A DNA stretch of 64,000 bases from positions 3,059,001 through 3,123,000 of the forward strand of contig NZ_CP085524.1 in NCBI RefSeq assembly GCF_004353525.1. Direction: 5' to 3'. Of the stretch, positions 28,496 to 60,965 are shown piece after piece; position 1 is the stretch's first letter; each line of letters opens with the position of its first letter. The stretch is from Zhaonella formicivorans. GTDB taxonomy: Bacteria; Bacillota; DUOV01; Zhaonellaceae. Both the position numbers and the translations under genes were made by a program. The notes under the pieces are model-generated. The model was not told the origin of the DNA. It was given only the letters and a program-made list of their open reading frames with translations, and made no database searches.

Positions 28496-29377
28496 TTGAT
28501 TCCGGTAGAGAAATTAGATTTAAATAAAAAGGCCTGGCAGCGTTTTACAGAGGTGGGGGAGTTGATGCCGGGAGTAAGGCCTGTAATCGCCCGCTCCTGG
28601 TTCCGTTGCAAAAATTACGGGCTCAAACCGTTTACCGCCTTAGATAAAGGAGCAGAATTTCCTGCAAGTAATTCGGGCGCAGAACTGATAGAAGGAGAAA
28701 AACTGCTGCCTGATGAAAAAGAAATACCTATTAATAAAAAAGAAGGCGTAAATAAGACCCCAGTGCAATGGGAAACAATAATTTCTGTATTGGAACGTGT
28801 ATATGCATGGTTAGGGCTAGAAGAAGTTTTACTGGTGCTGCTCCACAATCACACTGTTTTAGCCCGCTGGGGCCAAGTCAGGCCCATGGGGCCAAGTTAC
28901 TGGCAGGTTGGGGAAACCTTGAGGGAAGAAAAATACGGTACTATAGCCCCTGTTTTGCTCCAACCGGACATCAGTAGCTGCCAAGTTATAGGTCCTGAAC
29001 ATTTTTTGGCCTGCTTCCATGATTACCATTCGCTGGCGGTAAACTTAAGGCTGCCGGAGCTGAATCTGGGGCTTTGTGTGGTGGGACCTTTAGGCAGACT
29101 GGGACCGCAAACTGAGGGTCTTTTTATGGCAGTTGAAGAGCTACTGCAGTTGCGGTTGGCTGAGAAGCGTAAGGGGGGTACTTCGCCAGTTACGCTAAAT
29201 TCCTCCAGCCTACCTTTGGCCAAAGATGAAAGTTTGGCTATTTTGGAAGCTTACGACAAGTTTTCCGGGAATATTTCCCAGACTGCGGAGGCTGTAGATA
29301 TGGGCAGCAACACTTTACGTGAATATGGCATAACGACTGAAGAGAAAGAGATAAATTGGTGTTTCTATTCAGGCTAA
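28496..29377 (+). CDS. orphan GAF/Fis-like protein, AcoR-type activator without the AAA+ domain
   Basis: A 293-residue protein whose start (PVIARSWFRCKNYGLKP, about 27-43) is the hallmark N-terminus of AcoR-like sigma-54 activators. The middle (about 95-220) resembles a GAF sensor domain. The end (SLAILEAYDKFSGNISQTAE then MGSNTLREYGI) looks like a Fis-type HTH that has lost some residues. The central AAA+ ATPase with GAFTGA is absent, so it cannot activate sigma-54 RNA polymerase by itself. TTG start after GTGGAGTGAATCAC. It may be a decayed activator or a sensor partner. Confidence 0.65.
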   Translation: MIPVEKLDLNKKAWQRFTEVGELMPGVRPVIARSWFRCKNYGLKPFTALDKGAEFPASNSGAELIEGEKLLPDEKEIPINKKEGVNKTPVQWETIISVLERVYAWLGLEEVLLVLLHNHTVLARWGQVRPMGPSYWQVGETLREEKYGTIAPVLLQPDISSCQVIGPEHFLACFHDYHSLAVNLRLPELNLGLCVVGPLGRLGPQTEGLFMAVEELLQLRLAEKRKGGTSPVTLNSSSLPLAKDESLAILEAYDKFSGNISQTAEAVDMGSNTLREYGITTEEKEINWCFYSG

Positions 29378-29438: not shown

Positions 29439-30437
29439 CTAGGGCAGTATATCCAGCGGGTCCACCAGCTTTTTGTTTACAAAAACCATAAAATGAAGGT
29501 GGGGCCCGGTGCTTCTGCCGGTAGAGCCCACCTTTGCAATAACATCTCCTTTTTTAACAGTTTGTCCTCGTTTAACCAGAAGGGAGGAGGCGTGAGAGTA
29601 TTGAGTCCGGTAGCCGTATCCGTGTTCAATGATTACAGTACGACCGTACCCGGAAAGCGAGCCTGCAAATACAACCTTACCATTACCTGCCGCCCTAATC
29701 GGTTCGCCCTTATTGGCGGCAATGTCCAGTCCATCGTGAAACTCTTTTCCCCCGCCGAAGGGAGACTGGCGGTAGCCAAACCTGGAGGTGATGTAGCCTT
29801 TTAGAGGCCATTTAGTGGGTATAGCTGCCAAATAATGTTGGCGTGCCGTGACGTCCTTTTTTAACTGCTTGAGTTTGTCCACCTTGTTTTCCAAGAGCGG
29901 GTTGAGTGTCTCAAATCCAGCAGCAATTTTTTGCGTTGTTTCCAGCCAGTCATATCCCTCTGAACCGGAAGTTATAGCAGGTATCTGCTGATCTTTCCAC
30001 GACCTTTCTTGGGGTGAACTGTTCATTTCATCGGAAAAACTGTCAAGGGGAATGCCGCCGCCCATGGAGCCCGTTCCTTCATCTATGTTGTTTTTGCTAT
30101 TTTTCCTTGTCAATCCTACCAGTTCCCGTATTTGCCTGTCCAATTCCTCCACAGCTTCTATTTTTTCCCTTATCGACTCCTCTTTTTCTTTGAGTCGCAT
30201 AATCTCTTGTTGCTGCTTAAGGTTAATAACCTTAAGCTCTGCATAGTGTTTGGCCTCAGAACGCAACTGCAAGTTATTGCTAAGTAAGTAGATACTTATT
30301 GTTAGTATGGCAATTGTAACTCCGGCGGCCAATTTGATCTGCCAACCGGTGATTTTAAAGTTGGTTGACCTACCATAATAAGTGGGAATAATAAGCACTG
30401 TCCAGTGCTTATTATGTTTAGATTTAGATTTTTTCAT
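29439..30437 (-). CDS. M23 (LytM) family peptidoglycan endopeptidase, membrane-anchored
   Basis: Zinc peptidase cutting peptide cross-bridges of the cell wall. About 332 residues: cytoplasmic basic N-terminus, one membrane helix (about 32-54, LAAGVTIAILTISIYLL), a coiled coil (about 58-105), a linker, and the LytM domain with FHDGLDIAANKGEPI (first zinc ligands H and D), GYGRTVIIEHG and the terminal HLHF. The start at 30437 follows AAGGGAGGAACTG; the frame extends 24 bases further up without support. It is the last gene of the actin-bactofilin-peptidase cluster, a pairing known for other bactofilins with M23 enzymes. Confidence 0.93.
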   Translation of the reverse strand: MKKSKSKHNKHWTVLIIPTYYGRSTNFKITGWQIKLAAGVTIAILTISIYLLSNNLQLRSEAKHYAELKVINLKQQQEIMRLKEKEESIREKIEAVEELDRQIRELVGLTRKNSKNNIDEGTGSMGGGIPLDSFSDEMNSSPQERSWKDQQIPAITSGSEGYDWLETTQKIAAGFETLNPLLENKVDKLKQLKKDVTARQHYLAAIPTKWPLKGYITSRFGYRQSPFGGGKEFHDGLDIAANKGEPIRAAGNGKVVFAGSLSGYGRTVIIEHGYGYRTQYSHASSLLVKRGQTVKKGDVIAKVGSTGRSTGPHLHFMVFVNKKLVDPLDILP

Positions 30438-30492
30438 CAGTTCCTCCCTTGAACAATACAAAGGGTTGCCACCATGGTACTGCTTTCTCTAG

Positions 30493-31098
30493 TTAGTAGC
30501 TACTATAAAAGCGCAGCTGTTTATGATCGTTAAGCGGCTTTTCGTCCTTTGTCTGAGAAGCGAGTGTCCCATTTTGGAGTGGTATTGTTTTTTCACAGTC
30601 TTGTTGCGTGTTGTTAACATTATGAATACAATTGTCTTTCAATATGCCGTCGGCTTCATTTGGTTTTGGTACTTTATTGCTTAGTTCGGGTTTGGATTCA
30701 ATACAGCTTTTAATTGTATCCTCTCTGGTAAAATCTAAATTGGAGGGATTCATTGGCAGCCCATTGTCAGCAACCTCATTTGACTGCTTTTTCTCCTTTT
30801 CACTTTCGTCAACCATTGTGCCTCCGTCCTTAACCGATAAGCGCTGACATTTTAGTTTACCGTAATACAGTTGGCCGGATGAATATATTACCAAACTTTC
30901 TGCTTCCACGTCACCATGCACCAAGCCGGCTATCTCAACGCTTCTAGCTTGAATATTGCCGAAAAAACGACCGGAGGGAGCAATTATCACTTCACGTCCT
31001 TTATGAATTGTCCCTTTCAGGACGCCGTTGATTTCAATCAAACCGTGTTCATCGTAAGGTGTCCTAAAAAAGTTGGTCAGTAATTTCCCTACTTTCAT
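30493..31098 (-). CDS. bactofilin
   Basis: Polymer-forming cytoskeletal protein, 201 residues. The bactofilin beta-helix core spans about residues 20-95: EINGVLKGTIHKGREVIIAP, FFGNIQARSVEIAGLVHGDV and ESLVIYSSGQLYYGKLKC show the repeating hydrophobic/glycine rungs, with the usual turn GLVHGDVEA. A long charged, probably disordered tail (about 100-201, rich in Lys, Asn and Glu) follows and is longer than in most bactofilins. It is 12 bases downstream of the actin-like gene and 55 upstream of the M23 gene, so all three are likely co-transcribed. Confidence 0.9.
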   Translation of the reverse strand: MKVGKLLTNFFRTPYDEHGLIEINGVLKGTIHKGREVIIAPSGRFFGNIQARSVEIAGLVHGDVEAESLVIYSSGQLYYGKLKCQRLSVKDGGTMVDESEKEKKQSNEVADNGLPMNPSNLDFTREDTIKSCIESKPELSNKVPKPNEADGILKDNCIHNVNNTQQDCEKTIPLQNGTLASQTKDEKPLNDHKQLRFYSSY

Positions 31099-31110
31099 TA
31101 AAATATCACC

Positions 31111-32148
31111 TTATAAACTTTGTTGCGGAGTAAGCACTGTTTCTTCATGCGGTCTAGTTTGCCATAACCTGTTTCCCCAGGACAGATAGCCGCGACAGTT
31201 GGCAGTAATCGGGTCAACTGCCAGTTTTGCATGTTGCAATTGAGACAACAAATAAGAACTTATTGCCTGTCCGCCGCCGCCTGTTAAAATCAAGTTGTCG
31301 AAATCTGACACCCTCCACTGGGAATTGATTTCTACTAATACGTTTGTGGACAACTTTTGGAAGGCTTTGTCAACTATTTCAGCAATGTCAAATGCTTGCC
31401 CCGAAATATTAATTTTGCGCTTAATAATTACGCTGTCCAAGGCGTAGCTCTCTTTTTCCAGCCCATATTCCGTGGCTAAATTGGCGCTAACTTCACTATA
31501 GGCTGTTGCCAAGCCTACAGAGAGCGATATACTTTTTTCCGGTATGTATTCTCCGTCTTCTATTGCAGCCAGATCGGTAGTACGGAAACCAAGATCAATA
31601 ATTCCGGTTAGTCCCTCCAGGGGAAACGAATTTTCTTCACCGTCAAGGCTAAGAAATTGGGACCAGTAGGTTCCCAGCGGCTGGGGGACGATTTCCACTT
31701 CGGAAACATAAATCCTGATTTCCTGCATTTCACCGCCGCGAGAAATATTGATAGTCCTTTCACCCCTAACCCGTGTTTCCAGGTCCTTACTTAAATGTAT
31801 TCTTTCCACAGGAAGTCCTGTCACTACCTTAAACTCATTAGTGCGATTAGGGCAGAACAAACTCAAGGCGCTGTAGAATAGAATTTCGAAATCGTCTCCC
31901 ACCGAGCGCGTGTAGGAAAGGTCGCGGTAGACAAACTTTGAATGCCTTATTGCCGATTTGCCAACGAAATATAACTTTTGACCCATCCCGATTTTCAAAT
32001 CATCGATAGCGGGCTTATAATTGCCCCTTGAATTAAACGTTGGCTTGGTATGGCCTTCACCTACCACGCTGGGAAAAGAATAGCCAGATTCCCCGTCCGT
32101 AATTTTTACAAAACCATACCCTACATCCAGGCCGACTATTTTTGTCAT
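31111..32148 (-). CDS. ParM/StbA-like actin-type ATPase
   Basis: Filament-forming actin homologue, 345 residues. N-terminal phosphate-1 motif VGLDVGYGFVKI (about 4-15), SFPSVVGEG, a phosphate-2 region GIIDLGFRTTDLAAIEDG (about 190-207) and the adenosine motif LILTGGGGQAISSYLL (about 288-303). These match the ParM/Alp plasmid-segregation branch, not MreB. The gene sits in chromosomal surroundings with bactofilin and a wall peptidase, not with a ParR-like adaptor or centromere repeats. The ATG at 32148 follows GGAGG by 7 bases; a TTG two codons up is too close. A role in wall growth or positioning is inferred. Confidence 0.87.
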   Translation of the reverse strand: MTKIVGLDVGYGFVKITDGESGYSFPSVVGEGHTKPTFNSRGNYKPAIDDLKIGMGQKLYFVGKSAIRHSKFVYRDLSYTRSVGDDFEILFYSALSLFCPNRTNEFKVVTGLPVERIHLSKDLETRVRGERTINISRGGEMQEIRIYVSEVEIVPQPLGTYWSQFLSLDGEENSFPLEGLTGIIDLGFRTTDLAAIEDGEYIPEKSISLSVGLATAYSEVSANLATEYGLEKESYALDSVIIKRKINISGQAFDIAEIVDKAFQKLSTNVLVEINSQWRVSDFDNLILTGGGGQAISSYLLSQLQHAKLAVDPITANCRGYLSWGNRLWQTRPHEETVLTPQQSL

Positions 32149-32426
32149 CCCCAAACCTCCAGTTCCTTAGGTTTTTAAATTAATTTACTTTCTTCGACAA
32201 TTTAATTTTAATTATAACAACTTCAGATAAATTACTTTTAAACTAACCTAAATTTTAGTTAATGTTTCTGTTAACTTTTTATAACTCTGAAAAGAGCTAT
32301 GTTCAAATAGAACTCCAAACAGATATATAAATGAATTTTAAGTTAAAAAATAGGATCTGATCGAAGAGGAGAACTTTTTTTTATGGAGAATTTAATTTGA
32401 AATCACAAATGGGTAGGGAATAATTG

Positions 32427-33128
32427 ATGGCAGGCGAGAAGATTTTAGTGGTTGACGATGAAGCTGTGGTCAGGAAAGTGGTCGAATATCACCTGGTTAG
32501 GGAAGGTTTCCGGGTGCTCACTGCCGGGGATGGTGGCAGCGTTTTAGAACTGGTTCGCCTCCAGAAGCCCGACTTGATTATCCTCGATATATTGCTACCT
32601 GACCTTGATGGTTTAGAGGTCTGTTATGAAATACGCAAAAGTAATAATGTACCTATTATCTTTTTAACCTCCAAAAATGATGCTTCAGATATCATTCTCG
32701 GTTTAGGGGTTGGCGGGGATGACTATGTAGTCAAACCATTTAACCCTAAAGTGCTGGTTGCCAGGGTAAAAGCAAACTTGCGTCGATTGCAAAAAAGCAA
32801 AACAACTCCATCTTCAGAGCAGCAACAAATTCTCAGCTATCCTGGCATAGATATAGATATCCCCAGCCGTACAGTTTTGGTGGACGGGTCACCGGTAGTC
32901 CTGACCAATAAAGAGTTTGAGCTTCTGGTCCTTCTGGCGCAAAACCCAAGCCGCGTTTATTCTTACCACCAGTTGTTGGAACTGGTCTGGCAGTTTAAAG
33001 ACAATGTGGACTATCGGACTGTATTGGTTCACATTAACCGGCTGCGTAAAAAAATAGAACGGGACCCTTCCAAGCCCCGTTATATCATGACCGTAAGAGG
33101 GGTAGGGTATAAGTTTAATCACCCATAA
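32427..33128 (+). CDS. OmpR/PhoB-family response regulator
   Basis: Two-component transcription factor of 233 residues. Receiver domain about 1-120 with DDE near residue 10, phosphoacceptor Asp in LIILDILLPDLDG (about 52) and Lys in VVKPFNPK. The winged-helix output domain (about 135-230) shows LTNKEFELLVLLAQNPSRV, VDYRTVLVHINRLRKKIE and IMTVRGVGYKF. The ATG at 32427 is preferred over a TTG just before it. It is divergent from the actin gene (272-base AT-rich gap with no clear promoter motif) and converges on the giant hybrid kinase gene, whose stop is 1 base away. Confidence 0.93.
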   Translation: MAGEKILVVDDEAVVRKVVEYHLVREGFRVLTAGDGGSVLELVRLQKPDLIILDILLPDLDGLEVCYEIRKSNNVPIIFLTSKNDASDIILGLGVGGDDYVVKPFNPKVLVARVKANLRRLQKSKTTPSSEQQQILSYPGIDIDIPSRTVLVDGSPVVLTNKEFELLVLLAQNPSRVYSYHQLLELVWQFKDNVDYRTVLVHINRLRKKIERDPSKPRYIMTVRGVGYKFNHP

Positions 33129-48297: not shown

Positions 48298-48366
48298 GGT
48301 ATAATTGAGTCGTTCAAAACAACAATCCACCAAAAGGAGAGTGTTATTGTTGAACTCAATTATACC
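48298..48366 (+). promoter_or_regulatory. IS promoter inside a hairpin that can hide the transposase ribosome-binding site
   Basis: Perfect 13-bp arms (48298-48310 and 48354-48366) enclose AAGGAGA (48334-48340) and the TTG start codons. The left arm contains the extended -10 sequence TGGTATAAT (48297-48305), so a transcript from this promoter begins inside the arm's far side and lacks it, whereas read-through transcripts from outside carry both arms and would sequester the start region. Confidence 0.6.
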
Positions 48367-49783
48367 ATTTTTGATACTATACAATCAATTTTTACTTAAA
48401 CAAATTCGCCAGTTACTTTTGTTTATCGTTAAAAATATTCCCTTAAAAACTCCTAAACAGGATATCACCAGCCCGAAGTATCGTAAGCTTACTGTGGACA
48501 GGCTCCCCATTATTAAACAGCCTGAAAAACTTGACTACAAGCAGCTGCTTAACGATTACAAGTCTAAGCATGGTAAAGAGCTTAAACCTGTTAAGTCCCG
48601 TGGGAAAAACCCTGTTTCTCCCGATGTTGTTTGCCACCGTTGCGGCGCCCCTCATACATACCTCTACGACAATACAGGAGGCCGTGGTCAGCTTTTATGC
48701 AAAGTCTGCGGGCTAAGGTTCAACAAAGATAAGAAGGACTTTAAAATCGGTGCACTTACTTGCCCTTATTGTGGCAGAATCCTTGAGAAAAAGAAGGAGC
48801 GCAAGCAATTTAATATCCACAAGTGTACGAACAAGAAATGTCCTTTTTATCTTCAGTCCCTTAAAAACCTTTCTCCGGAAGACCTGGAAGAATACAAGAA
48901 AGATAAGCATAAATTTAAGCTACACTACATCTACCGCGAGTTCACTGTCGACTTTTTTAAGGTCGATTTAAACAGTATGCCTAAAGGATCAGTCAATTTT
49001 ACTTTTCGTCACTTTTCTCCTCACATTCTTGGTCTTTGCCTGACCTATCTTGTAAACCTTGGGCTGTCCACACGGGCTACTTCCAGGGCCCTTTGGGAGA
49101 TCCACGGCGTTAAAATCTCTCATGTTATGGTCAGTAAATATGCCAAAACTGCTGCCGCTTTGGTTAAACCTTACGTTGATAATTTTGATTACAAACCCAC
49201 AAACTACCTGGCTGCTGATGAAACCTACGTTAAGGTCAGAGGCATCAAGCATTATGTCTGGTTTATTATGGATGCACTCAAAAAATCTATCTTGGGCTAT
49301 TGTGTATCTGATACAAGGGATGTAGGTCCTTGTATCCTGGCTATGCGTATGGCTTTTGCTAAGTTTAAAGATTTCCCCGCTCAAGCCCTAAAGTTTGTTG
49401 CTGATGGCTACTCTGCCTACAACGGTGCACAGCAGCAGTTCATGCTTAAAGACATGGATTTTAACCTTACGCAGGTATTCGGACTCACCAATGATGATCC
49501 TGTTTCGGAAGAATATCGCTGGCTTAAGCAAATTATTGAACGCCTTAACAGGACCTTTAAATTCTCCTATCAGGTGACAAACGGCTATGGTAGTGGGGAA
49601 GGCTCAAATACCCATGTGTCACTTTTTGTAGCCTATTACAACTTCCTGCGCCCACACTCCTATACTTACTGGCAGCCACTAAACTCTATTCCGGAACTTG
49701 AGTCTATCCCAAACATGCCTGCTAAATGGCAGAAGCTTATTGAATTATCACAGCAGCTTATCCTGTCACAGCAAACACCATAG
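48347..49783 (+). CDS. DDE transposase with zinc-ribbon N-terminal region
   Basis: Transposase of about 478 residues. A first part contains two Cys-rich zinc-finger-like motifs (CHRCGAPHTYLYDNT...CKVCG, and CPYCGRIL...CTNKKC). The catalytic core (about 245-440) is DDE-type, like IS240/IS6: ALWEIHGVKISHVMVSKY, LAADETYVKVRG (first Asp), FVADGYSAYNGA (second Asp) and IIERLNRTFKFS (Glu). It ends in RPHSYTYWQPLN, typical of integrase-like transposases. The start is TTG at 48347 or 48350, judged from AAGGAGA. The reading frame is intact, so it may still be active. Exact element ends were not found. Confidence 0.85.
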   Translation: MLNSIIPFLILYNQFLLKQIRQLLLFIVKNIPLKTPKQDITSPKYRKLTVDRLPIIKQPEKLDYKQLLNDYKSKHGKELKPVKSRGKNPVSPDVVCHRCGAPHTYLYDNTGGRGQLLCKVCGLRFNKDKKDFKIGALTCPYCGRILEKKKERKQFNIHKCTNKKCPFYLQSLKNLSPEDLEEYKKDKHKFKLHYIYREFTVDFFKVDLNSMPKGSVNFTFRHFSPHILGLCLTYLVNLGLSTRATSRALWEIHGVKISHVMVSKYAKTAAALVKPYVDNFDYKPTNYLAADETYVKVRGIKHYVWFIMDALKKSILGYCVSDTRDVGPCILAMRMAFAKFKDFPAQALKFVADGYSAYNGAQQQFMLKDMDFNLTQVFGLTNDDPVSEEYRWLKQIIERLNRTFKFSYQVTNGYGSGEGSNTHVSLFVAYYNFLRPHSYTYWQPLNSIPELESIPNMPAKWQKLIELSQQLILSQQTP

Positions 49784-49805
49784 AACAGGCGGTAGCACCC
49801 TTAAT

Positions 49806-49929
49806 CCTTCAACCTCTTATCTGCCCTTAAACATGCGGTTCAAAGACTGTCAAATGCCTTTCTTCGAAGGCAATGACCTCTTGACAGGCTTTGAATCCGC
49901 ATTGTTATGCTCTTCATAGAGGTTGGAGG
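49806..49929. repeat. long composite inverted repeat downstream of the transposase
   Basis: Three nested stems in 124 bases: outer 12-bp arms (49806-49817 / 49918-49929, one G-T pair), middle arms of about 21 bp (49832-49852 / 49881-49902, one mismatch and one bulge) and an inner perfect hairpin (49855-49872, TGCCTT / AAGGCA around CTTCG). It probably marks the right end or terminator of the insertion sequence. The rest of the gap to 50113 shows no gene. Confidence 0.75.
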
Positions 49930-50113
49930 TGTTTTGTTTTACTGTTCTTCTGGGCTATCTCGTTTTTCAGGTGACATTTTGGGTTTAGTCTGTCCCATAT
50001 ACTCCTTAAACTGCATTTTTCATAAGTTAGTTAACACTATCTTTCTATTATAATTATATTTTATTAGTGAAAAAAGGAATACAAGTCATAAACTTGTATT
50101 CCCCCTTAAATCA

Positions 50114-50836
50114 TCAGTAAGAATTCATAAATGAGAAATCCCAGGAAGAGGTTCCTCTATGAATAGTAACATTTTGTATGCATCCCATTTGGGTATTTAT
50201 ATCAGCTAAGACGAAGTCCCAATCAGAAGGGGTCGTATAACTAAATGTATTTATAGCAGGGTAAACCGGATGAACCTGTTCTATCCACCCCCAGCCGCCG
50301 TTACCGGAACTGGCTAATATAACTTCTCTATCGCTTAGTGACAGCTGTGAATCTAAAATTTGCCAGCCGCCTTCGGCTTTATACAGTTTAACCATTGCAA
50401 GCCCATTAGGGTCTGTACTCTTTTGCCAGTAAATGGTGTTATACGCTTTTACCCCATAAGAACCATCATAGTCATAATCGTATTTACTAGGAAGTTCAGC
50501 CACTGCTGCAAAATTTGTAGTTGCATAGGTTGTCACCGTCTTACCATCAGCATATTTTTTCTCTTCTAGCTTTTGTGTAGTGGAAAAAATATCAACTTTG
50601 CCTTCTTTTTTTGTTTTAACATTAACTACTTTGCTCTCATGTCTAAATGGTGCATTAATATCTGTAATTCCTTTTTGTGCTCGCTCAAAGAGTTTGTCCT
50701 TATCTTTAATTTCTTTTGCTGTAAACACAATTTCAGGGTTATCAACATTCTTGGCAAAACTTGCTGGTACTACAAATATTAAACCCATCAGAATAGCAAC
50801 ACTTAATATAAGTGATATTTTCTTAGTTAAATCCAT
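50114..50836 (-). CDS. secreted protein of unknown function
   Basis: A 240-residue protein with a clear signal peptide (basic start MDLTKKI, hydrophobic 7-25, cleavage after ASFA near residue 28). The mature part is polar and rich in Tyr, Thr and Lys, with aromatic-rich stretches YDYDYDGSYGVKAYNTIYW and GGWGWIEQVHPVYP. No Cys pair, repeats or catalytic motif that I recognise. A GAGGGGG site precedes the ATG. The AT-rich composition resembles its neighbours to 53000 rather than the core chromosome. It may be controlled by the ECF sigma factor nearby; that is speculative. Confidence 0.7.
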   Translation of the reverse strand: MDLTKKISLILSVAILMGLIFVVPASFAKNVDNPEIVFTAKEIKDKDKLFERAQKGITDINAPFRHESKVVNVKTKKEGKVDIFSTTQKLEEKKYADGKTVTTYATTNFAAVAELPSKYDYDYDGSYGVKAYNTIYWQKSTDPNGLAMVKLYKAEGGWQILDSQLSLSDREVILASSGNGGWGWIEQVHPVYPAINTFSYTTPSDWDFVLADINTQMGCIQNVTIHRGTSSWDFSFMNSY

Positions 50837-51048
50837 TCATAGTCCCCCTCTTGAAAAATTATATTAATTTAAATCATAATTTTTCACACAATCAACAGAA
50901 CCACCCCCCTTAATCATCTGAAAATTTACTCCTGCACATATAAGACAAACTAAAGCCCAAAAAGTTTTATTTTTTTTGGCAAAAAATAGAACTTTTTTTA
51001 AAGTTATTAGTCTTGATATCGAATTAAAATTTAAGGGGGAATTGATTT

Positions 51049-51447
51049 ATGAAAAAGGTAGTAGTATTAAGTATTACTCTTTTGGTTTTAATGCTGTGTA
51101 CCCAAGTGGCATTGGCAGCGGAAGAGGACAATTTAATAGTCGCGCCGGAAAGTTCTTCAGTGTTCATGGCCTATGATGCTTTGATTGACGCAACTTCTTC
51201 CAGTATTATTTGCGGCGTCTCGTCTGAACTTACTTACCCCACAAGCCAGTCGCTTTACATGGAACTGCAAAAATGGAACGGCAGCTATTGGGTTAAAGTT
51301 AAATCGTGGTCACGTTATGATACTGCTATGTCCCTGCAACTCAGGGAATCTTACCCAAAAAGCCCGGGTACATACAGGGTAACCGGCACTCACCAAGCAG
51401 CTGGTGAAACGAGATACTCTTATAGCCCCATTAAAATTATCGATTAA
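51049..51447 (+). CDS. small secreted protein of unknown function
   Basis: A 132-residue protein with a signal peptide (MKKVVVLSITLLVLMLC..., cleavage after ALA near residue 24). The mature part (about 108 residues) looks like a beta-sandwich: MELQKWNGSYWVKVKSWSRY, then SPGTYRVTGTH. These short repeats of Trp/Tyr strands resemble secreted proteins of Gram-positive bacteria whose function is not known. AAGGGGGAA precedes the ATG, and a terminator follows at once. Confidence 0.7.
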   Translation: MKKVVVLSITLLVLMLCTQVALAAEEDNLIVAPESSSVFMAYDALIDATSSSIICGVSSELTYPTSQSLYMELQKWNGSYWVKVKSWSRYDTAMSLQLRESYPKSPGTYRVTGTHQAAGETRYSYSPIKIID

Positions 51448-51448
51448 A

Positions 51449-51473
51449 AAAGGAAGCCCTAGCGGCTTCCTTT
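51449..51473 (+). terminator. Rho-independent terminator
   Basis: Perfect 10-bp arms AAAGGAAGCC / GGCTTCCTTT around a 5-base loop, directly after the secreted-protein stop codon. The AT-rich gap that follows (to 51733) holds no recognisable gene. Confidence 0.8.
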
Positions 51474-51733
51474 ACGCTATTTTAGTTTTTAAGCATTCCT
51501 GGTTCTACAATATTAACATCACACCGATTACAACATTTTTTATGTCTTTATGTTATTAGATATTATTCAATTTAACCGATAAACATATAGTCTGTTTTAG
51601 AGGAGTTGCGTTATAGAACAATTTGAACATTAAACAATTAATTATTTTTTTGCTTTAGTTATAATAATTCCAAGAAAAATCTTTATAGAAGACAAGGTAA
51701 TAAATAAAACGTTTTTTGTGCCCCGGGTTTTTT

Positions 51734-52459
51734 TCACTTTAAATTTTTTATTATTTCTAACAGAATCTCCTGTTCAATAAAATTGGCTGACAATGTGTAC
51801 TTAATTCCGTTATAAGTCCATTTAGCAGAAAGGGAATTATCGATTTTTAGCAAAGTAATATTTTTATTATCTAATTTAATATTCTCAACCTCAACATTTT
51901 CCGGAACAAAAGTGTTCCTTTTCTCCTCACCGGCGGAATTTTCCTGTACTAAAGACAGAAATTTGTTGTCGGCCCCTGTATAGGTCATTTTTACAAGGGC
52001 TAAAGGATAATTATTTATTATTACCTCTATTTCAGGGCTATTTTCAAAGTCGGAAGGTAAATAGGTTGGTTTAACGAGGTGGAAAATAGTCATTCCCTGG
52101 GCTTCCTCAAAAGTCAGACCCGTATACCTACCATTTTCCGCGGTAACATTCTCTTGTTCAGTAATAATAGTAATATTATTTTCATCTTTTCCAATCCATT
52201 CATATATTTCATTTTTAAAAGCAGTAACTTTTTGATTCTGAATGGAAAAGAGTATAATAATCGCTGCAGCCACAACTAACGCTAGCCTTTTACGATTTTT
52301 TTTATGGTCTGTTTTATGCTTGGATTCTCTAACCTGCACTCTTTTTTCAAAATTTGCCCAGGCCACGTTAACATCAGGCATACCTTGTTCTGCTTCCACT
52401 TCTAATTCCTTTAAAGCTGCGGCAATTATTCTATCCATCTGATCGCTATTTTTCCTCAT
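51734..52459 (-). CDS. anti-sigma factor-like membrane protein (DUF4367-type)
   Basis: A protein of about 241 residues. The cytoplasmic N-terminus (1-70) is charged and helical, suited to hold a sigma factor; a membrane helix follows (about 78-95, LALVVAAAIIILFSI), and an external domain (about 100-240) with TFEEAQGMTIFHLVKPTYLP and TLLKIDNSLSAKWTYNGIKY, like the DUF4367 domain found in anti-sigma partners of ECF factors. It overlaps the sigma gene by 14 bases. The start is probably ATG at 52459; an ATG 15 bases further upstream is the alternative. Confidence 0.8.
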   Translation of the reverse strand: MRKNSDQMDRIIAAALKELEVEAEQGMPDVNVAWANFEKRVQVRESKHKTDHKKNRKRLALVVAAAIIILFSIQNQKVTAFKNEIYEWIGKDENNITIITEQENVTAENGRYTGLTFEEAQGMTIFHLVKPTYLPSDFENSPEIEVIINNYPLALVKMTYTGADNKFLSLVQENSAGEEKRNTFVPENVEVENIKLDNKNITLLKIDNSLSAKWTYNGIKYTLSANFIEQEILLEIIKNLK

Positions 52460-53003
52460 TATCACCACACCCATAATTCATATTACAGCTCTTATCATTC
52501 TGAAAAGAAAGCATTTTAGCTAAAAGTTTTTTAGCCCTGTACAAGGAAGATTTCACCGTTCCCACTGGTTTCCCTATCTGTTTACTAATTTCCTGGTCCT
52601 GGAGTTTCATGTAGTATTTTAGTATTATGACTTCTTTTAACTTGGGAGGCAATTGAGTCACGGCCTCTTTTACGGCATCAATTTGCTCATTAATAACTAA
52701 GACATCCGAAAGGTCATTTGAGTTCCAGTTATTTTGTTCAAAATAATCTAGTACTGCTTCTTCATCTATTGGTACTATCTTTTGGTTTCTCCGGTATAAT
52801 GAAATGGCTTTATTGGTTGCTATTGAAATAATCCATGAACTGAATTTTGCGGGATCTTTTAGGGTATATATTTTCTCGTATGCTGTCGTAAAAGTTTCCT
52901 GGGTTACTTCTTCTGCCAATTCATGGTTTCTCAGGATCATATAACAAGATGTATACACTTTTTTATAATAAGTCATATATAAGACTTTAAAATGATCGCT
53001 CAT
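52446..53003 (-). CDS. ECF sigma factor
   Basis: Extracytoplasmic-function sigma-70 factor, 185 residues. Region 2 (about 10-80): LYMTYYKKVYTSCYMIL, LAEEVTQETFTTAYEKI and FSSWIISIATNKAISLYRR. Region 4 (about 115-170): AVTQLPPKLKEVIILKYYM, ISKQIGKPVGTVKSSLYRAKK, the HTH that reads the -35 element. CGGGGAGCAAAC precedes the ATG. The 50-bp direct repeat begins 12 bases upstream of the start, so its promoter must lie in or beyond the mobile DNA. Confidence 0.93.
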   Translation of the reverse strand: MSDHFKVLYMTYYKKVYTSCYMILRNHELAEEVTQETFTTAYEKIYTLKDPAKFSSWIISIATNKAISLYRRNQKIVPIDEEAVLDYFEQNNWNSNDLSDVLVINEQIDAVKEAVTQLPPKLKEVIILKYYMKLQDQEISKQIGKPVGTVKSSLYRAKKLLAKMLSFQNDKSCNMNYGCGDNEEK

Positions 53004-53014
53004 GTTTGCTCCCC

Positions 53015-53064
53015 GTTATTTGGAAAGTAAAAAGGAACTAGGCCACATTCTTCCCGCATTTTAG
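53015..53064. repeat. 50-bp direct repeat flanking the IS110 element, copy 1
   Basis: Identical over 50 bases to 54712-54761, in the same orientation (starts GTTATTTGGAAAGTAA, ends CCCGCATTTTAG). The two copies bracket the IS110-type transposase and its non-coding flanks. Confidence 0.95.
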
Positions 53065-53200
53065 TACGAAAATAAATTTGAAATATTCTTTAACAACTGC
53101 ATATGGCAACCAGGATAACCCGTAAAAAGGTAATAATTAACTAGCCAATGCAGATCTTGCATCAGTGAAATTAATTCTTTTGGAAAAACCATTGTAGCTG

Positions 53201-54448
53201 TTAAGCAACCTCGTGGGGTTCTATCACCTCCAGACCTAGTTTCTTAGCTTCAGCAATAATCCTTTTAACTCGGAACTTTTCCTGTTTTTGTTTGGCTTTT
53301 TCAAAGGATGTTTCATCGTAATCAGCATCATTTTTTAACAGGTTGTATATTATTACGAGAACTTTTCTGGCTAATGCAACAAGAGCTTTTTTGGCGCCAC
53401 GGCGTTGTTTGATTTTCCAATACCAGGATGATAAGTAGCTTTGACGTATTCGGGTGATGCACCAAGCAACTTCACATAGGATCCGTTTTAAATAGGTGTT
53501 ACCGTTGGTGGTACGAGTGGACTTTTTTTTTCCTGCACTTTCATTGTTACCGGGGCTTAAGCCCGCCCAGGAACAGATATGTTCAGCGGTTTTAAAACGA
53601 CTCATATCAATTCCGATTTCCGCCAAAATGGCTGCTGCTGCAGTTTTATCAATGCCCGGTATGCCGTCTAGTTGCTCTAGTTGTCTTTGATACTGAGCCA
53701 GTTTTTCTTCTAAGTTTTGCTCTACTTGACGGAGATGCTCGTAATGCTGATCTAGCCAACCTAACAATAGCTTTAGAAACTCTCTTTGATGAACATCCAT
53801 TTTGCCATTGACAGCCTGTTTGATCTCATGGAGCTTATTCTTAGCACGCCCCTTTACAAAATTCTCTACTTCCCGGGCGGATATTTTCCCATGGTGGCTA
53901 AGATGATCCATAATCGCCCGGCCCGATACGCCGAAGATATCGGTCAGGAAGGTAGAGAGCTTAAAGCCGCAGCTTTGTAAGTGTTTTTCGATCCGGTTTT
54001 TCTGTGACGTAATTTCCTCGATGATACTTTTGCGGTACCGGGTCAGATTACGGAGTTCCCGGATTGGTTTGGAGGGAACAAAACTTCCTTCTAATAATCC
54101 GGCACGCAAAAGGGTAGCTATCCATTCGGCGTCCTTCATGTCGGTCTTTTTACCGGGTACATTTTTCATATGCCGGGCATTGGCAACAATCAAAACCATA
54201 CTGCCGTCAAAGGCTTCTTCCAACACGTTATATACAGGCTGCCAATAGATGCCGGTGCTTTCCATTGCAACATGCCGACAGTTCTCATTTTCTAGCCAAA
54301 CTTTCATTTCATCTAGCCCGGCAAGAAGGGTGGAAAAGGTGCGGATGGTTTTAACCGGTTCCCCGTCAACATTGCCTTTTAATAGGCAGGCTACAACCGT
54401 TTCTTTGTGGACATCAAGACCACAACATATTTCCAGGATGTCTTGCAT
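53201..54448 (-). CDS. IS110-family transposase (DEDD recombinase)
   Basis: Recombinase of 415 residues. N-terminal DEDD domain: CCGLDVHKETVVACLLKG (first Asp), VAMESTGIYWQPVYNVLE (Glu), KTDMKDAEWIATLLRAG (Asp pair). The C-terminal Tnp20 domain has LDGIPGIDKTAAAAILAEIG, CSWAGLSPGNNESAGKKKS and TTNGNTYLKRILCEVAW with the conserved Ser (GNNESAGK). The ATG at 54448 follows AGGAGTGAGTT; the frame continues upstream but only through non-family sequence. It is intact. Members of this family are guided by a bridge RNA from their own non-coding end. Confidence 0.93.
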   Translation of the reverse strand: MQDILEICCGLDVHKETVVACLLKGNVDGEPVKTIRTFSTLLAGLDEMKVWLENENCRHVAMESTGIYWQPVYNVLEEAFDGSMVLIVANARHMKNVPGKKTDMKDAEWIATLLRAGLLEGSFVPSKPIRELRNLTRYRKSIIEEITSQKNRIEKHLQSCGFKLSTFLTDIFGVSGRAIMDHLSHHGKISAREVENFVKGRAKNKLHEIKQAVNGKMDVHQREFLKLLLGWLDQHYEHLRQVEQNLEEKLAQYQRQLEQLDGIPGIDKTAAAAILAEIGIDMSRFKTAEHICSWAGLSPGNNESAGKKKSTRTTNGNTYLKRILCEVAWCITRIRQSYLSSWYWKIKQRRGAKKALVALARKVLVIIYNLLKNDADYDETSFEKAKQKQEKFRVKRIIAEAKKLGLEVIEPHEVA

Positions 54449-54711
54449 GTAACTCACTCCTGCTCCAAAGAATTTCAGGGATGATTGCTCGAGAAATAAA
54501 GATTTTAGTACCCGTGCTGTTCCCAAGTCCTTAAGAACAAGGGGCGACAATTGGCTGTGCTCAAAAGCAATCAAGTTAGGTTATTTAACGAGGTTATACC
54601 ATCAAAATAAAATCAACCTTTGTCCCTGATAATTTCAATGTAGCAAAAAATCCAACCTTTGCAATAACTTAGCTAATTTTCATGATTGGTTGTGCCTTCC
54701 AGGCATGGGTG
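54449..54711 (-). ncRNA. candidate bridge RNA region of the IS110 element
   Basis: The 263 non-coding bases upstream of the transposase start, within the element. In known IS110 elements the bridge RNA is encoded here. I did not fold it or find the target- and donor-binding loops, so this is by position only. Confidence 0.35.
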
Positions 54712-54761
54712 GTTATTTGGAAAGTAAAAAGGAACTAGGCCACATTCTTCCCGCATTTTAG
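54712..54761. repeat. 50-bp direct repeat flanking the IS110 element, copy 2
   Basis: Exact copy of 53015-53064. The sequence after it (54762-55106, 345 bases) contains no recognisable gene or signal. Confidence 0.95.
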
Positions 54762-55106
54762 ATGAATGTGGCTCAGGAGTACCAGAACTCGGCTGCTTTA
54801 GGTCAATAGTTTTGTGTACTTGTTTTTGACAAATTTTCCGTTATTTATAAATTTTATTCTATATGGTCCAACCGATTTAGTCAATTTTAGTTCTGCTTGA
54901 GCTTTTTGCGCTGCACCTGTTTAAGTCTGTTTCAGGTAGCGTTTTAGCGACGGAACGCTCGTCATTTTGCCTAAGGTTCAACCATTTAAAGCGTTCCGGA
55001 ATTGTTTCTCCCATAAGTTTCCTGGTGTATCATTAATAGGCAGTCAAATGGGCGGACTACTCACTCAGTGGTTGCGCCAGATATGATATTTGGGTTGGTT
55101 GCTGCT

Positions 55107-56405
55107 TTACGCCGCCACCAGGCTGCGCATCTTCGCGACCTGCTTCTCCTTGATCCGCCCCAGTGCCATCACCAGCATGACGCATAATGCCAGCCCGCAC
55201 CGCACCTTCATTTTCGCCATGCCGCGAATAGTGTGCAGTTCGAAGCCAAAGGACACGTCCAAACGGCTGTTCACTCGCTCCACCGCCGTCCGTTTGTCGT
55301 ACTCTTTCTCCCACTTGTAGCTGGCACGGTCAATCGGTGTAAAGATCCGACGATCCATCGCCAGCGGGATCCGGATCCCTTGCTTTACCGGGCATTGTGC
55401 CTGACCTGCACACTCGATGCCCATATGCTTGGCGGGGCAAAGCTTCTTCAATGTGTTACGGCCTTTTTCAAAGCCGCCGTTTGTCATCTCCCGCTGCTTC
55501 CCCGTTTGTGGACATACGCAGTATACGGTGCCTTTATAGTCGTAAACCACATTCTCTCTGCCTTCCAACACTCGTGTTCGGTCTGGATCCTTCCACATGT
55601 TCCGAATGTCGATGACCGGCTTAATCTTGTACTCATCCCAGCACTTGATGATAAACTTCGTGTCGTCATAGCCGCGGTCTGCTGCGAGGGTTTCGGCTAC
55701 CTCGAGGATTTCCGACTGTCTTTCCTGCATCTGGTTCAGCAGGGCATGCCCTTCACTTATATCCGCTGCCGATGCTTTCGTTACCTTAAACGCCACGGGC
55801 AGTTCATAGGTCGCATCAACTACCAGGTGTAGCTTGTAGCCAAACCATTTGACGATCTTCTCCCATGGTTTGCCGTCTTTGTCTACGCCGCGGTATTCTT
55901 TTCTCCCGTAGTCGGCATCCGTATCCCGCCGCCCATCCGCGGCCTCGTTCCGATTCTTTCCCTTGGCAAACGAGGAGATGGCTTTGCTGTCCATGGCCAG
56001 GTGTCGACCAGAGTCAGGAAGCACTTCCCTAATCTGCTGCACCAGGTTCTCGAACAAGTCATCCACCATGGATGTGTGTGCGAATAGCGTTTTCATAAAC
56101 CGGGTGTAGACCCAGGCGGGAGGTACTTCCCCCGCAAACCCACACATGTCCCGCAGCTGGGCGTTGCGTTTAAGTTCTCGGCGCAAGCTCTCGATGGAGG
56201 AATGTTGAAAGACGATGCCGGCTAAGAGGAAGTTCCACACGGCTCTGACCGGGTAGTCATTACGCCCCTTACCACGCTTTCTTTCCAAAGCTTTCATCAG
56301 GTCTTCATCCGGCATGTGTTCCAATACCAGCCGGAGTCGTTCCATGTCCCCCAGCGTTTCAATTTCGTTCCACGCAAACAGTTTCAGTTGTGGTATAATA
56401 GCCAT
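55107..56405 (-). CDS. DDE transposase of a second insertion sequence
   Basis: Transposase of 432 residues with an IS4/IS5/IS1182-like layout: N-terminal DUF772-like region (LVLEHMPDEDLMKALERKRG, YPVRAVWNFLLAGIVFQHSS), then RHLAMDSKAISSFAKG (first catalytic Asp), a GYKLHLVVDATYELPVAFKV strand, LAADRGYDDTKFI (second Asp), a Cys cluster (CPAKHMGIECAGQAQCPVK) and RTAVERVNSRLDVSFGFE (Glu). It appears complete. The ATG at 56405 follows GGGAGG; a TTG at 56414 is too close to it. No target-site or inverted terminal repeat was found. Confidence 0.9.
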   Translation of the reverse strand: MAIIPQLKLFAWNEIETLGDMERLRLVLEHMPDEDLMKALERKRGKGRNDYPVRAVWNFLLAGIVFQHSSIESLRRELKRNAQLRDMCGFAGEVPPAWVYTRFMKTLFAHTSMVDDLFENLVQQIREVLPDSGRHLAMDSKAISSFAKGKNRNEAADGRRDTDADYGRKEYRGVDKDGKPWEKIVKWFGYKLHLVVDATYELPVAFKVTKASAADISEGHALLNQMQERQSEILEVAETLAADRGYDDTKFIIKCWDEYKIKPVIDIRNMWKDPDRTRVLEGRENVVYDYKGTVYCVCPQTGKQREMTNGGFEKGRNTLKKLCPAKHMGIECAGQAQCPVKQGIRIPLAMDRRIFTPIDRASYKWEKEYDKRTAVERVNSRLDVSFGFELHTIRGMAKMKVRCGLALCVMLVMALGRIKEKQVAKMRSLVAA

Positions 56406-56408
56406 GAC

Positions 56409-56473
56409 AGGCAACCTCCCGAGGATAAAATTGGTGTCTTTTCAACTACAATTTTACCATAACGGAGGTGCCT
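56409..56473 (-). promoter_or_regulatory. leader hairpin and promoter of the second transposase
   Basis: Outer arms 56409-56421 and 56463-56473 (AGGCACCTCCG with CGGGAGGTTGCCT, one bulge each side) would pair away the ribosome-binding site GGGAGG; inner arms 56426-56433 and 56449-56456 are perfect. On the minus strand an extended -10 (TGGTAAAAT) falls in the upstream inner arm, so the element's own transcript would start past it. Confidence 0.5.
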
Positions 56474-59753: not shown

Positions 59754-60965
59754 ATGGCTAAACTCATAGCAGCTGACCTATTTTGCGGAGCCGGAGGTCT
59801 ATCTGAAGGATTAGCTCAAGCGGGTTTTCAGATTAACTTCGCCAGTGATATTCATCAGACTTATACTCAAACTTACAAATACAATCATCCCAATACATAC
59901 GTTTGTACCGAAGATATTAGAAATCTGTCAAATAAACAGGTCCTTGAATTTTGTCAGGTGAAGCCGGGTGATTTAGACTTACTGGCAGGTGGACCACCGT
60001 GTCAAGGTTTTTCAATTAATGCTCCTGTAAGAACTATGGAGGACGAAAGGAACCATTTATTTGTTCATTTCCTGCGTGTTGCCGAAACCTTAAAGCCGAA
60101 ATATATTCTCATAGAAAATGTTCCTGGTATAGTATCCTTAGAAAAAGGAACTGTAGTAAAGGCCATATATAAGTCATTAAACAAATTAGGATATAAAGTA
60201 AGACACATGATTTTATTTGCTGCTCACTATGGGGTTCCACAGATGAGATGGAGGACCTTTTTTATTGGAACCAGATTGAAAAATGCTGAATGTCTATTTC
60301 CTTATCCGACTCATTTTGCCCAGGGAGTTGCTAATTTCACTGGGGGGAAAAACCTTTGTTTTAAAATAGAATCAAAAGAGAGCCTTTTTGGCCCTCAACT
60401 TTTAGACTACACAACTGTTTGGGATGCAATTTCAGATTTACCAGTAATTGAAAACGGTGGAGGTGCAGATGAAATGCAATATGATACTCCACCAAAGTCT
60501 GAATATCAAAAATTGCTTCGGGAGAATTCCAAAATTCTGTACAACCATAGAGCCCCAACTTTAGGTAAAATTAATTTAGAAAGGCTTAAATACATTCCTC
60601 AAGGTGGAAGCTGGCGAGATATACCTTTTGACTTACTTCCGGCAGGTCTAAAAAAAGCTAGAAGAAGCGATCACACCAAAAGGTATGGTCGGTTAGACCC
60701 TAACGGCATATGCTCCACAATTTTAACTAAATGTGATCCTCATTGGGGGTCTTTTTTCCATCCCACACAGGAAAGAACTCTGACAGTTAGAGAGGCTGCC
60801 AGAATCCAGTCTTTTCCAGACCGTTTTAGATTCTTGGGTAGCTTAACCGAACAATATGAGCAAGTAGGAAATGCCGTTCCACCTCTGCTTGGAAAAGCTA
60901 TTGGGGAAATAATCGCGCAACAAATTTTTGCTAACCAGCTTAGTGGAAAATTGCAAGCAGTATAA
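59754..60965 (+). CDS. C5-cytosine DNA methyltransferase
   Basis: Protective methyltransferase of 403 residues. Motif I DLFCGAGGLSEGLAQAG (about 7-23), motif IV GGPPCQGFS with the catalytic Cys (about 80-88), motif VI IENVPGIVSLE, motif VIII near MRWRTFFIGTRL, and motifs IX-X RTLTVREAARIQSFPDRF and QVGNAVPPLLGKAIG. The target-recognition region lies between about 220 and 320. TTGAGGTGAG precedes the ATG. It follows the NotI-family endonuclease and together they form the restriction-modification unit. Confidence 0.96.
   Translation: MAKLIAADLFCGAGGLSEGLAQAGFQINFASDIHQTYTQTYKYNHPNTYVCTEDIRNLSNKQVLEFCQVKPGDLDLLAGGPPCQGFSINAPVRTMEDERNHLFVHFLRVAETLKPKYILIENVPGIVSLEKGTVVKAIYKSLNKLGYKVRHMILFAAHYGVPQMRWRTFFIGTRLKNAECLFPYPTHFAQGVANFTGGKNLCFKIESKESLFGPQLLDYTTVWDAISDLPVIENGGGADEMQYDTPPKSEYQKLLRENSKILYNHRAPTLGKINLERLKYIPQGGSWRDIPFDLLPAGLKKARRSDHTKRYGRLDPNGICSTILTKCDPHWGSFFHPTQERTLTVREAARIQSFPDRFRFLGSLTEQYEQVGNAVPPLLGKAIGEIIAQQIFANQLSGKLQAV

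Follow-up and report, generated by a model that had tools for sequence, protein, structure and literature searches.

ParMRC plasmid-segregation systems, such as those of R1 and pCBH, combine an actin-fold ATPase and the centromere parC with a ribbon-helix-helix (RHH) adaptor, ParR, which is encoded downstream of the actin and has a short actin hook at its C-terminus. ParM-class actins are also found on Bacillota chromosomes, for example Dh-cParM1 (PDB 8x1i), mostly with RHH cParR adaptors, and bactofilins are unmentioned in the paper describing them (PMC12270681). In filamentous cyanobacteria, a ParM-derived chromosomal actin has left plasmids altogether. This protein, FcmB of Nostoc (FcmB/FcmC, also CorM/CorR; PDB 9rmi), is membrane-associated and morphogenetic; it needs its partner FcmC, annotated as ParR, for membrane localization, and both are required for rod shape (PMC12645912). 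Bactofilins, in turn, form LmdC–BacA modules, in which the bactofilin is encoded beside LmdC, a bitopic M23 peptidase with a cytoplasmic hairpin, a transmembrane (TM) helix, a coiled coil, and a catalytic domain; LmdC binds the bactofilin via the hairpin, and no actin has been described in these modules (PMC10945521). The subject of the present analysis is a gene cluster of Zhaonella formicivorans that encodes a ParM-class actin, a bactofilin, and an M23 peptidase. The cluster lies within a stretch of 64,000 nucleotides, termed the window, at 3.06–3.12 Mb of the 3.31-Mb single-contig chromosome.

The three genes occupy one strand and are transcribed in the order actin, bactofilin, and membrane-anchored peptidase (Table 1). 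They are separated by 12 nucleotides (actin to bactofilin) and 55 nucleotides (bactofilin to M23, with the M23 start placed at ATG 30437 behind GGAGG and not at a TTG). A Shine–Dalgarno-like AAGGTGA of the bactofilin overlaps the actin stop codon, and the two genes share a reading frame with a single stop in between. Pfam models and a start-site check bear out this layout, including the divergent OmpR-type regulator, as a first-pass annotation had described it. Like ParMRC, the locus has the actin fold, the ATP-site residues, and a downstream partner gene whose product ends in a putative actin hook. It differs in having neither an RHH ParR nor parC, and its partner is a polymer-forming bactofilin. 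The absence of an adaptor and centromere array, also noted at first pass, holds at the locus: no ParR-like open reading frame (ORF) is present there, the ORFs downstream of the actin being the bactofilin and M23 and the divergent gene a response regulator, and no iteron or direct-repeat array was found between the actin and regulator genes, the interval that was scanned.

The conserved unit is the actin and bactofilin, narrower than the trio. The search took in relatives, the classes to which several members belong, and 398 genomes of the phylum, and the loci were fetched and their neighbors scored with profiles; whole-genome sampling covered one phylum. Actins of ~41% identity or more occur at 31 loci spanning 14 family codes, and in 30 of these a bactofilin gene lies directly downstream of the actin, on the same strand. 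Given this recurrence among close homologues, the pairing is not due to chance. Near the actins of ~30 more distant ParM-like loci (at most 38% identity) no bactofilin is found; some of these loci have a ParR-like ORF whose product ends in a KLDxLxxxF-like tail, and many of the loci are orphans on chromosomes. The proposal made at first pass was to stand or fall with conservation of the neighborhood, or with a ParR/parC partner of plasmid or prophage origin. The neighborhood proved to be conserved for the actin and bactofilin, but not for M23 (6 of 31 loci) or the OmpR regulator/kinase (7 loci).

Phylogenies of both proteins agree with this picture. In a tree of 63 sequences, the paired actins and one unpaired actin (locus L164) form a single clade with a Shimodaira–Hasegawa-like approximate likelihood ratio test (SH-aLRT) support of 100 and a stem of 1.32 changes per site; in a smaller actin tree, the paired clade has support of 100/100. 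The paired bactofilins form their own clade (96), separate from the canonical bactofilins that these genomes also encode, in a tree of 90 columns with accordingly limited internal resolution. Distances among the actins and among the bactofilins are correlated (Mantel r 0.90; none of 2000 permutations as high). Because each protein forms a single clade and the distances correlate, the pair is an old, co-inherited unit, and at the level of sequence its single origin, co-inheritance, and fixed co-directional order are established.

The actin belongs to the ParM/Alp class, not to MreB or FtsA, which upholds the first-pass assignment to the ParM branch. Its Pfam matches are ALP_N (118 bits) and MreB-like_C (64 bits), with weak matches to ParM_N and the Alp7A C-terminal model, and the closest solved chains by sequence are pCBH ParM and Dh-cParM1. 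The modeled fold is closest to Dh-cParM1 (Z 36.7 over 329 residues, root-mean-square deviation 2.8), to which it is ~22% identical in the structural alignment. CorM is the second-best match (Z 33.9), followed by pCBH ParM (Z 32.5); together with Alp7A, all of these fall at Z 31–37, while MreB reaches only ~Z 24–25 (Foldseek was also run). The ATP-site residues G184, D187, G189, T192, and G292–294 are near-invariant over the compared actin set. Despite the shared ancestry in ParM, the locus is distinct from FcmB/FcmC: the actin scores 25 bits against the NCBIfam FcmB model (cut-off 300), and the adjacent bactofilin and regulator are not FcmC-like. A search of the genome with the window actin as the query returned it as the sole ParM-type actin, and since the genome also has three MreB/Mbl homologues, it is extra to the usual elongation actins.

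Other ParM-like actins came to light during the search. Sister chromosomal actins at L021, L022, L063–L074, and L167–L170 are 30–38% identical to that of the window and have no adjacent ParR-like or bactofilin gene. Another ParM-like actin, 34–35% identical, is encoded at L075 (5306–7665) and L077 (5568–7932) in genomes G311 and G374. It is followed by a protein of 143–147 residues that has a weak, sub-threshold match to an Sm/Hfq-like domain (17 bits) and a ParR-like C-terminal tail, FKDRLDQLVRNW, and by a third gene encoding an unknown protein of ~281 residues. This actin may be a further ParM put to new use, with an unusual adaptor.

The bactofilin partner consists of a short hydrophobic/basic N-terminus, a beta-helix core at residues ~11–100, and a variable tail of ~100 residues. 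The core is modeled at a predicted local distance difference test (pLDDT) score of ~90 and the tail at ~30. Within the tail, the linker varies in length and sequence and is poorly alignable, but the end is conserved: an exact terminal F-x-x-x-[Y/F] is present in 23 of 29 actin-linked bactofilins, among them FYSSY, FYISY, FFTSY, FHSSF, FDCSY, FKSSF, FQTVF, FITSF, FHISF, FIVSF, and FYESY, and most of the others have degenerate near-terminal versions, such as FCGGF, FKGGY, FHGF, and FRGY in the deepest branch. We call this conserved end the hook, since its setting, after a variable linker in a protein encoded next to an actin, is that of the C-terminal hooks of ParR and arcadin-2. As an exact terminus, the motif is found in 0 of 16 other bactofilins of the same genomes (M23-linked and second bactofilins) and in 0 of 17 bactofilins of control genomes, including genomes with more distant actins. 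The difference between 23/29 and 0/16 gives a Fisher p of 1e-7, a value that ignores relatedness; the members are related, so independent events are fewer than sequences. The motif codons vary synonymously, which suggests selection on the protein sequence of the tail.

Two borderline cases bear on these counts. The bactofilin at L062 (G347) was scored as lacking the motif, and a frameshift is suspected, since the 3' region read in another frame gives IVFRGYM, like L165. The bactofilin at L186 (G001) matched a loose form of the motif with FSCLF two residues from its end; it is of a different, weakly scoring type, and the match was taken as chance. Recognition of the terminal carboxylate in the manner of PDZ domains is disfavored, because in the deepest branch the two aromatic residues seem to be retained slightly before the terminus, with a few residues after them.

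The actin has a corresponding signature. Residues W164 and W326 are invariant in 29 of 29 paired actins; in 21 related unpaired actins these positions are Y/F and L/M, respectively. In actin, the groove between subdomains 1 and 3 is hydrophobic, with Tyr143 in its lining, and it is flanked by the C-terminal helix, the element expected to hold W326 here. W164 corresponds to the position of Tyr143, because it lies six residues past Q158, which aligns with pCBH Gln168, the equivalent of actin Gln137 (PMC6599009). A precedent for binding at this site is arcadin-2, whose C-terminal peptide, conserved although the linker before it is not, occupies the hydrophobic groove of crenactin; the equivalent groove of ParM is bound by ParR (PMC5173319). 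Arcadin-2, which like the window bactofilin is encoded beside its actin, is an archaeal monomer sequesterer with no known sequence relation to the bactofilin, and the F-x-x-x-[Y/F] hook differs from the KLDxLxxxF-like tails of ParR-like ORFs in related loci. Given that the tail anatomy matches that of arcadin-2 and ParR, though the peptide differs, and that W164 sits at the Tyr143 groove position, we infer that the hook probably binds the actin.

These features suggest an undescribed two-filament system of cell organization. The favored reading, held with middling confidence, is a chromosomal two-polymer cytoskeletal module in which an actin once used for segregation, having no ParR, is coupled to a hook-tailed bactofilin. 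The bactofilin would polymerize on the membrane to form a scaffold, and its hook would dock in the barbed-end groove of the actin, between subdomains 1 and 3, where the tails of ParR and arcadin-2 also bind. At a site on the membrane, bactofilin hooks could thereby recruit, hold, cap, or nucleate actin filaments. An LmdC-type M23 endopeptidase would be recruited to this scaffold as well in the window and five other loci, via its cytoplasmic hairpin, and lead to local cell-wall remodeling, and the adjoining kinase/OmpR pair may regulate the module. Such a mechanism would resemble that of FcmB, which likewise depends on a partner to reach the membrane (PMC12645912). Stated in full, actin filament and bactofilin polymer would be obligate partners, a new C-terminal hook having let ParM give up its DNA adaptor in favor of a bactofilin scaffold on the membrane, to give an MreB-independent morphogenetic or positioning apparatus widespread in one phylum; this version, too, is about as likely as not.

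Four observations count against the coupled module. The aromatic motif of the deepest branch (f133, L166) is degenerate or several residues inside the terminus, and one member of the actin clade (L164 in genome G532), with both tryptophans, has no adjacent bactofilin. M23 is absent from most loci, adjoining the pair only in the window, L015, L018, L020, L054, and L055. Lastly, since actin and bactofilin lie in one frame with a single stop between them, the read-through chain could be folded with AlphaFold2; the actin and beta-helix were well modeled, and the tail was left undocked, with pLDDT ~30 to the last residue, in what is a weak test, made by a monomer network on one actin subunit with an alignment of nine rows.

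The M23 neighbor informs the output of the module. Its catalytic HxxxD and HxH motifs are intact, and it has one TM helix and a coiled coil behind a cytoplasmic N-terminal segment, VLIIPTYYGRSTNFKIT. A model built from a two-sequence alignment (pLDDT 48 overall) places strands at 12–18 and 24–30, followed by a long helix; only this hairpin-helix topology was used, the hairpin being predicted at pLDDT ~50–56. By element order, motifs, catalytic residues, and adjacent bactofilin, the peptidase qualifies as a putative LmdC-type partner, with the hairpin as the weak element. The hairpin and catalytic residues make a wall-remodeling output plausible in the window clade, and wall shaping is plausible; the module may thus act in morphogenesis. 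The bactofilin here, with its hook tail, belongs to another clade than the canonical M23-linked ones. Behind M23, a second short bactofilin (~100 residues) without a hook tail is encoded at L018 (13117–13419), L054 (9007–9309), and L055 (3125–3475), giving the order actin-bactofilin-M23-bactofilin; a weak remnant of it may sit at the same place in G111. Nearly every pair host examined also encodes a canonical bactofilin elsewhere, in most cases together with an M23 of its own. In the window genome, this canonical M23–bactofilin pair lies at ~2.65 Mb, and because it is kept separately there and in most other hosts, the window cluster is a paralogous, specialized module.

Adjacency of M23, and of the kinase and regulator, is lineage-specific. 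The regulator/kinase adjoins the pair in the window, L015, L018, L054, L055, and L060, with the response regulator divergent from the actin in all of these, and a related kinase of 1710 residues adjoins it in L020. Thus the filament pair placing a wall hydrolase, as envisaged at first pass, applies to some members and fails as a general description. The rarity of M23, together with the giant kinase and regulator at 7 loci, leaves room for the pair being a polarity or positioning device for another machine, such as type IV pilus ATPases or a sensory kinase complex, to which M23 is a lineage-specific addition. Bactofilins elsewhere serve motility as well as shape (PMC4627819), and in Fermentithermobacillaceae the pair is convergent with a pilus-like operon (L016, 6123–10314; L017, 2674–6912). 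However, such an operon stands beside the pair in that family only, no other neighbor recurs widely, and the M23 of the window clade has the LmdC-like cytoplasmic hairpin and intact catalytic residues; this explanation is possible, if on the unlikely side. As judged by eye from the translations, the Fermentithermobacillaceae operon encodes a PilT-type ATPase, a PilC-like protein, and pseudopilin-like proteins.

Alternatively, actin and bactofilin may share a promoter and pathway without contact, the tail binding the membrane, M23 or another enzyme, or another bactofilin, and the actin acting alone. The undocked chain model, the smallness of the tail signal, which is one short motif, and the actin at L164 are all compatible with this. 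Against it, the tail is confined to actin-linked bactofilins; it is missing from the bactofilins linked to M23 and from the second bactofilins in these genomes, so neither M23 nor general bactofilin assembly explains it. Actin and bactofilin distances also covary strongly, though shared ancestry alone could yield this. On balance, independent action of the two polymers is distinctly unlikely.

Plasmid and phage protein collections held only relatives at most ~29% identical to the window actin, and a plasmid or phage origin was rejected on this ground; a scan of viral contigs with the actin protein gave no match, and a profile scan gave two, 34% and 25% identical. Plasmid partitioning is unlikely, as the first-pass annotation had argued, because the locus is chromosomal, has no ParR or centromere, and has only these distant plasmid and phage relatives. 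A DNA-segregation system of any kind, plasmid or chromosomal ParMRC with an unrecognized adaptor and centromere, is highly improbable even though the actin is of the ParM class and ParMR systems are known from chromosomes, in some cases seemingly with no ParR (PMC12270681), given the lack of a ParR-like ORF or iteron array at the locus, the distance of the plasmid and phage relatives, the bactofilin that in 30 of 31 loci fills what is the ParR slot of several outgroup loci, and a long actin stem consistent with a change of function.

Table 1. Features of the actin–bactofilin locus, in window positions.
Feature	Position	Strand	Remarks
ParM-class actin-like ATPase	31111..32148	(-)	ORF listed 31111-32154 from upstream TTG; probable ATG 32148 behind GGAGG
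Bactofilin	30493..31098	(-)	PF04519 58.9 bits, cut-off 27.9
Putative hook motif FYSSY codons (F-x-x-x-[Y/F]-COOH)	30496..30510	(-)	C-terminal end of bactofilin
Putative LmdC-type M23 (LytM) peptidase	29439..30437	(-)	PF01551 125 bits; ORF listed 29439-30461 from TTG
OmpR/PhoB-type response regulator	32424..33128	(+), divergent from actin	Pfam Response_reg + Trans_reg_C
Giant hybrid sensor kinase, 1975 aa	33130..39057	(-), beyond regulator	Pfam: protein kinase-AAA-GAF-HisKA-HATPase-receiver-Hpt

The genes checked upstream of the cluster are of ordinary chromosomal kinds (such as an ABC transporter, a permease, and a nucleoside hydrolase), and insertion sequences occur in the window from ~48 kb onward. 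Beyond the kinase, the mobile-element-rich stretch at 48305–56414 contains three transposase genes (IS240-like DDE, IS110, and DDE_Tnp_1/DUF772) and is followed by a C-5 cytosine methylase at 59754–60965. At 28496–29377 (+), a protein of 293 residues weakly matches the N-terminal portion of DhaR, a sigma-54 activator, but has no AAA+ domain, and resembles a truncated or stand-alone sensor or regulator.

Several components of this arrangement are already known, namely chromosomal actins derived from ParM (PMC12270681), an actin of this descent that acts in cell shape (PMC12645912), and bactofilin–M23 modules (PMC10945521). The first-pass view that a ParM-type shape filament would be unusual has been overtaken by FcmB/CorM (2025–26), since ParM-derived shape actins are no longer unprecedented. 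Its other suggestion, that the module is undescribed, agrees with a literature search on bactofilins with ParM or actin-like proteins, which found no paper describing the pair or its dedicated tail (most subscription papers lay outside the search).

Bactofilins and actins have so far been treated as separate cytoskeletons. If the direct coupling is true, the pair would be, to our knowledge, the first actin–bactofilin composite system, and would represent a second independent recruitment of a plasmid-segregation actin for cell organization, after cyanobacterial FcmB/CorM. The coupling makes a concrete prediction at the molecular level, centered on two tryptophans and a hook of five residues, and the finding bears on what drives ParM systems from plasmids onto chromosomes.

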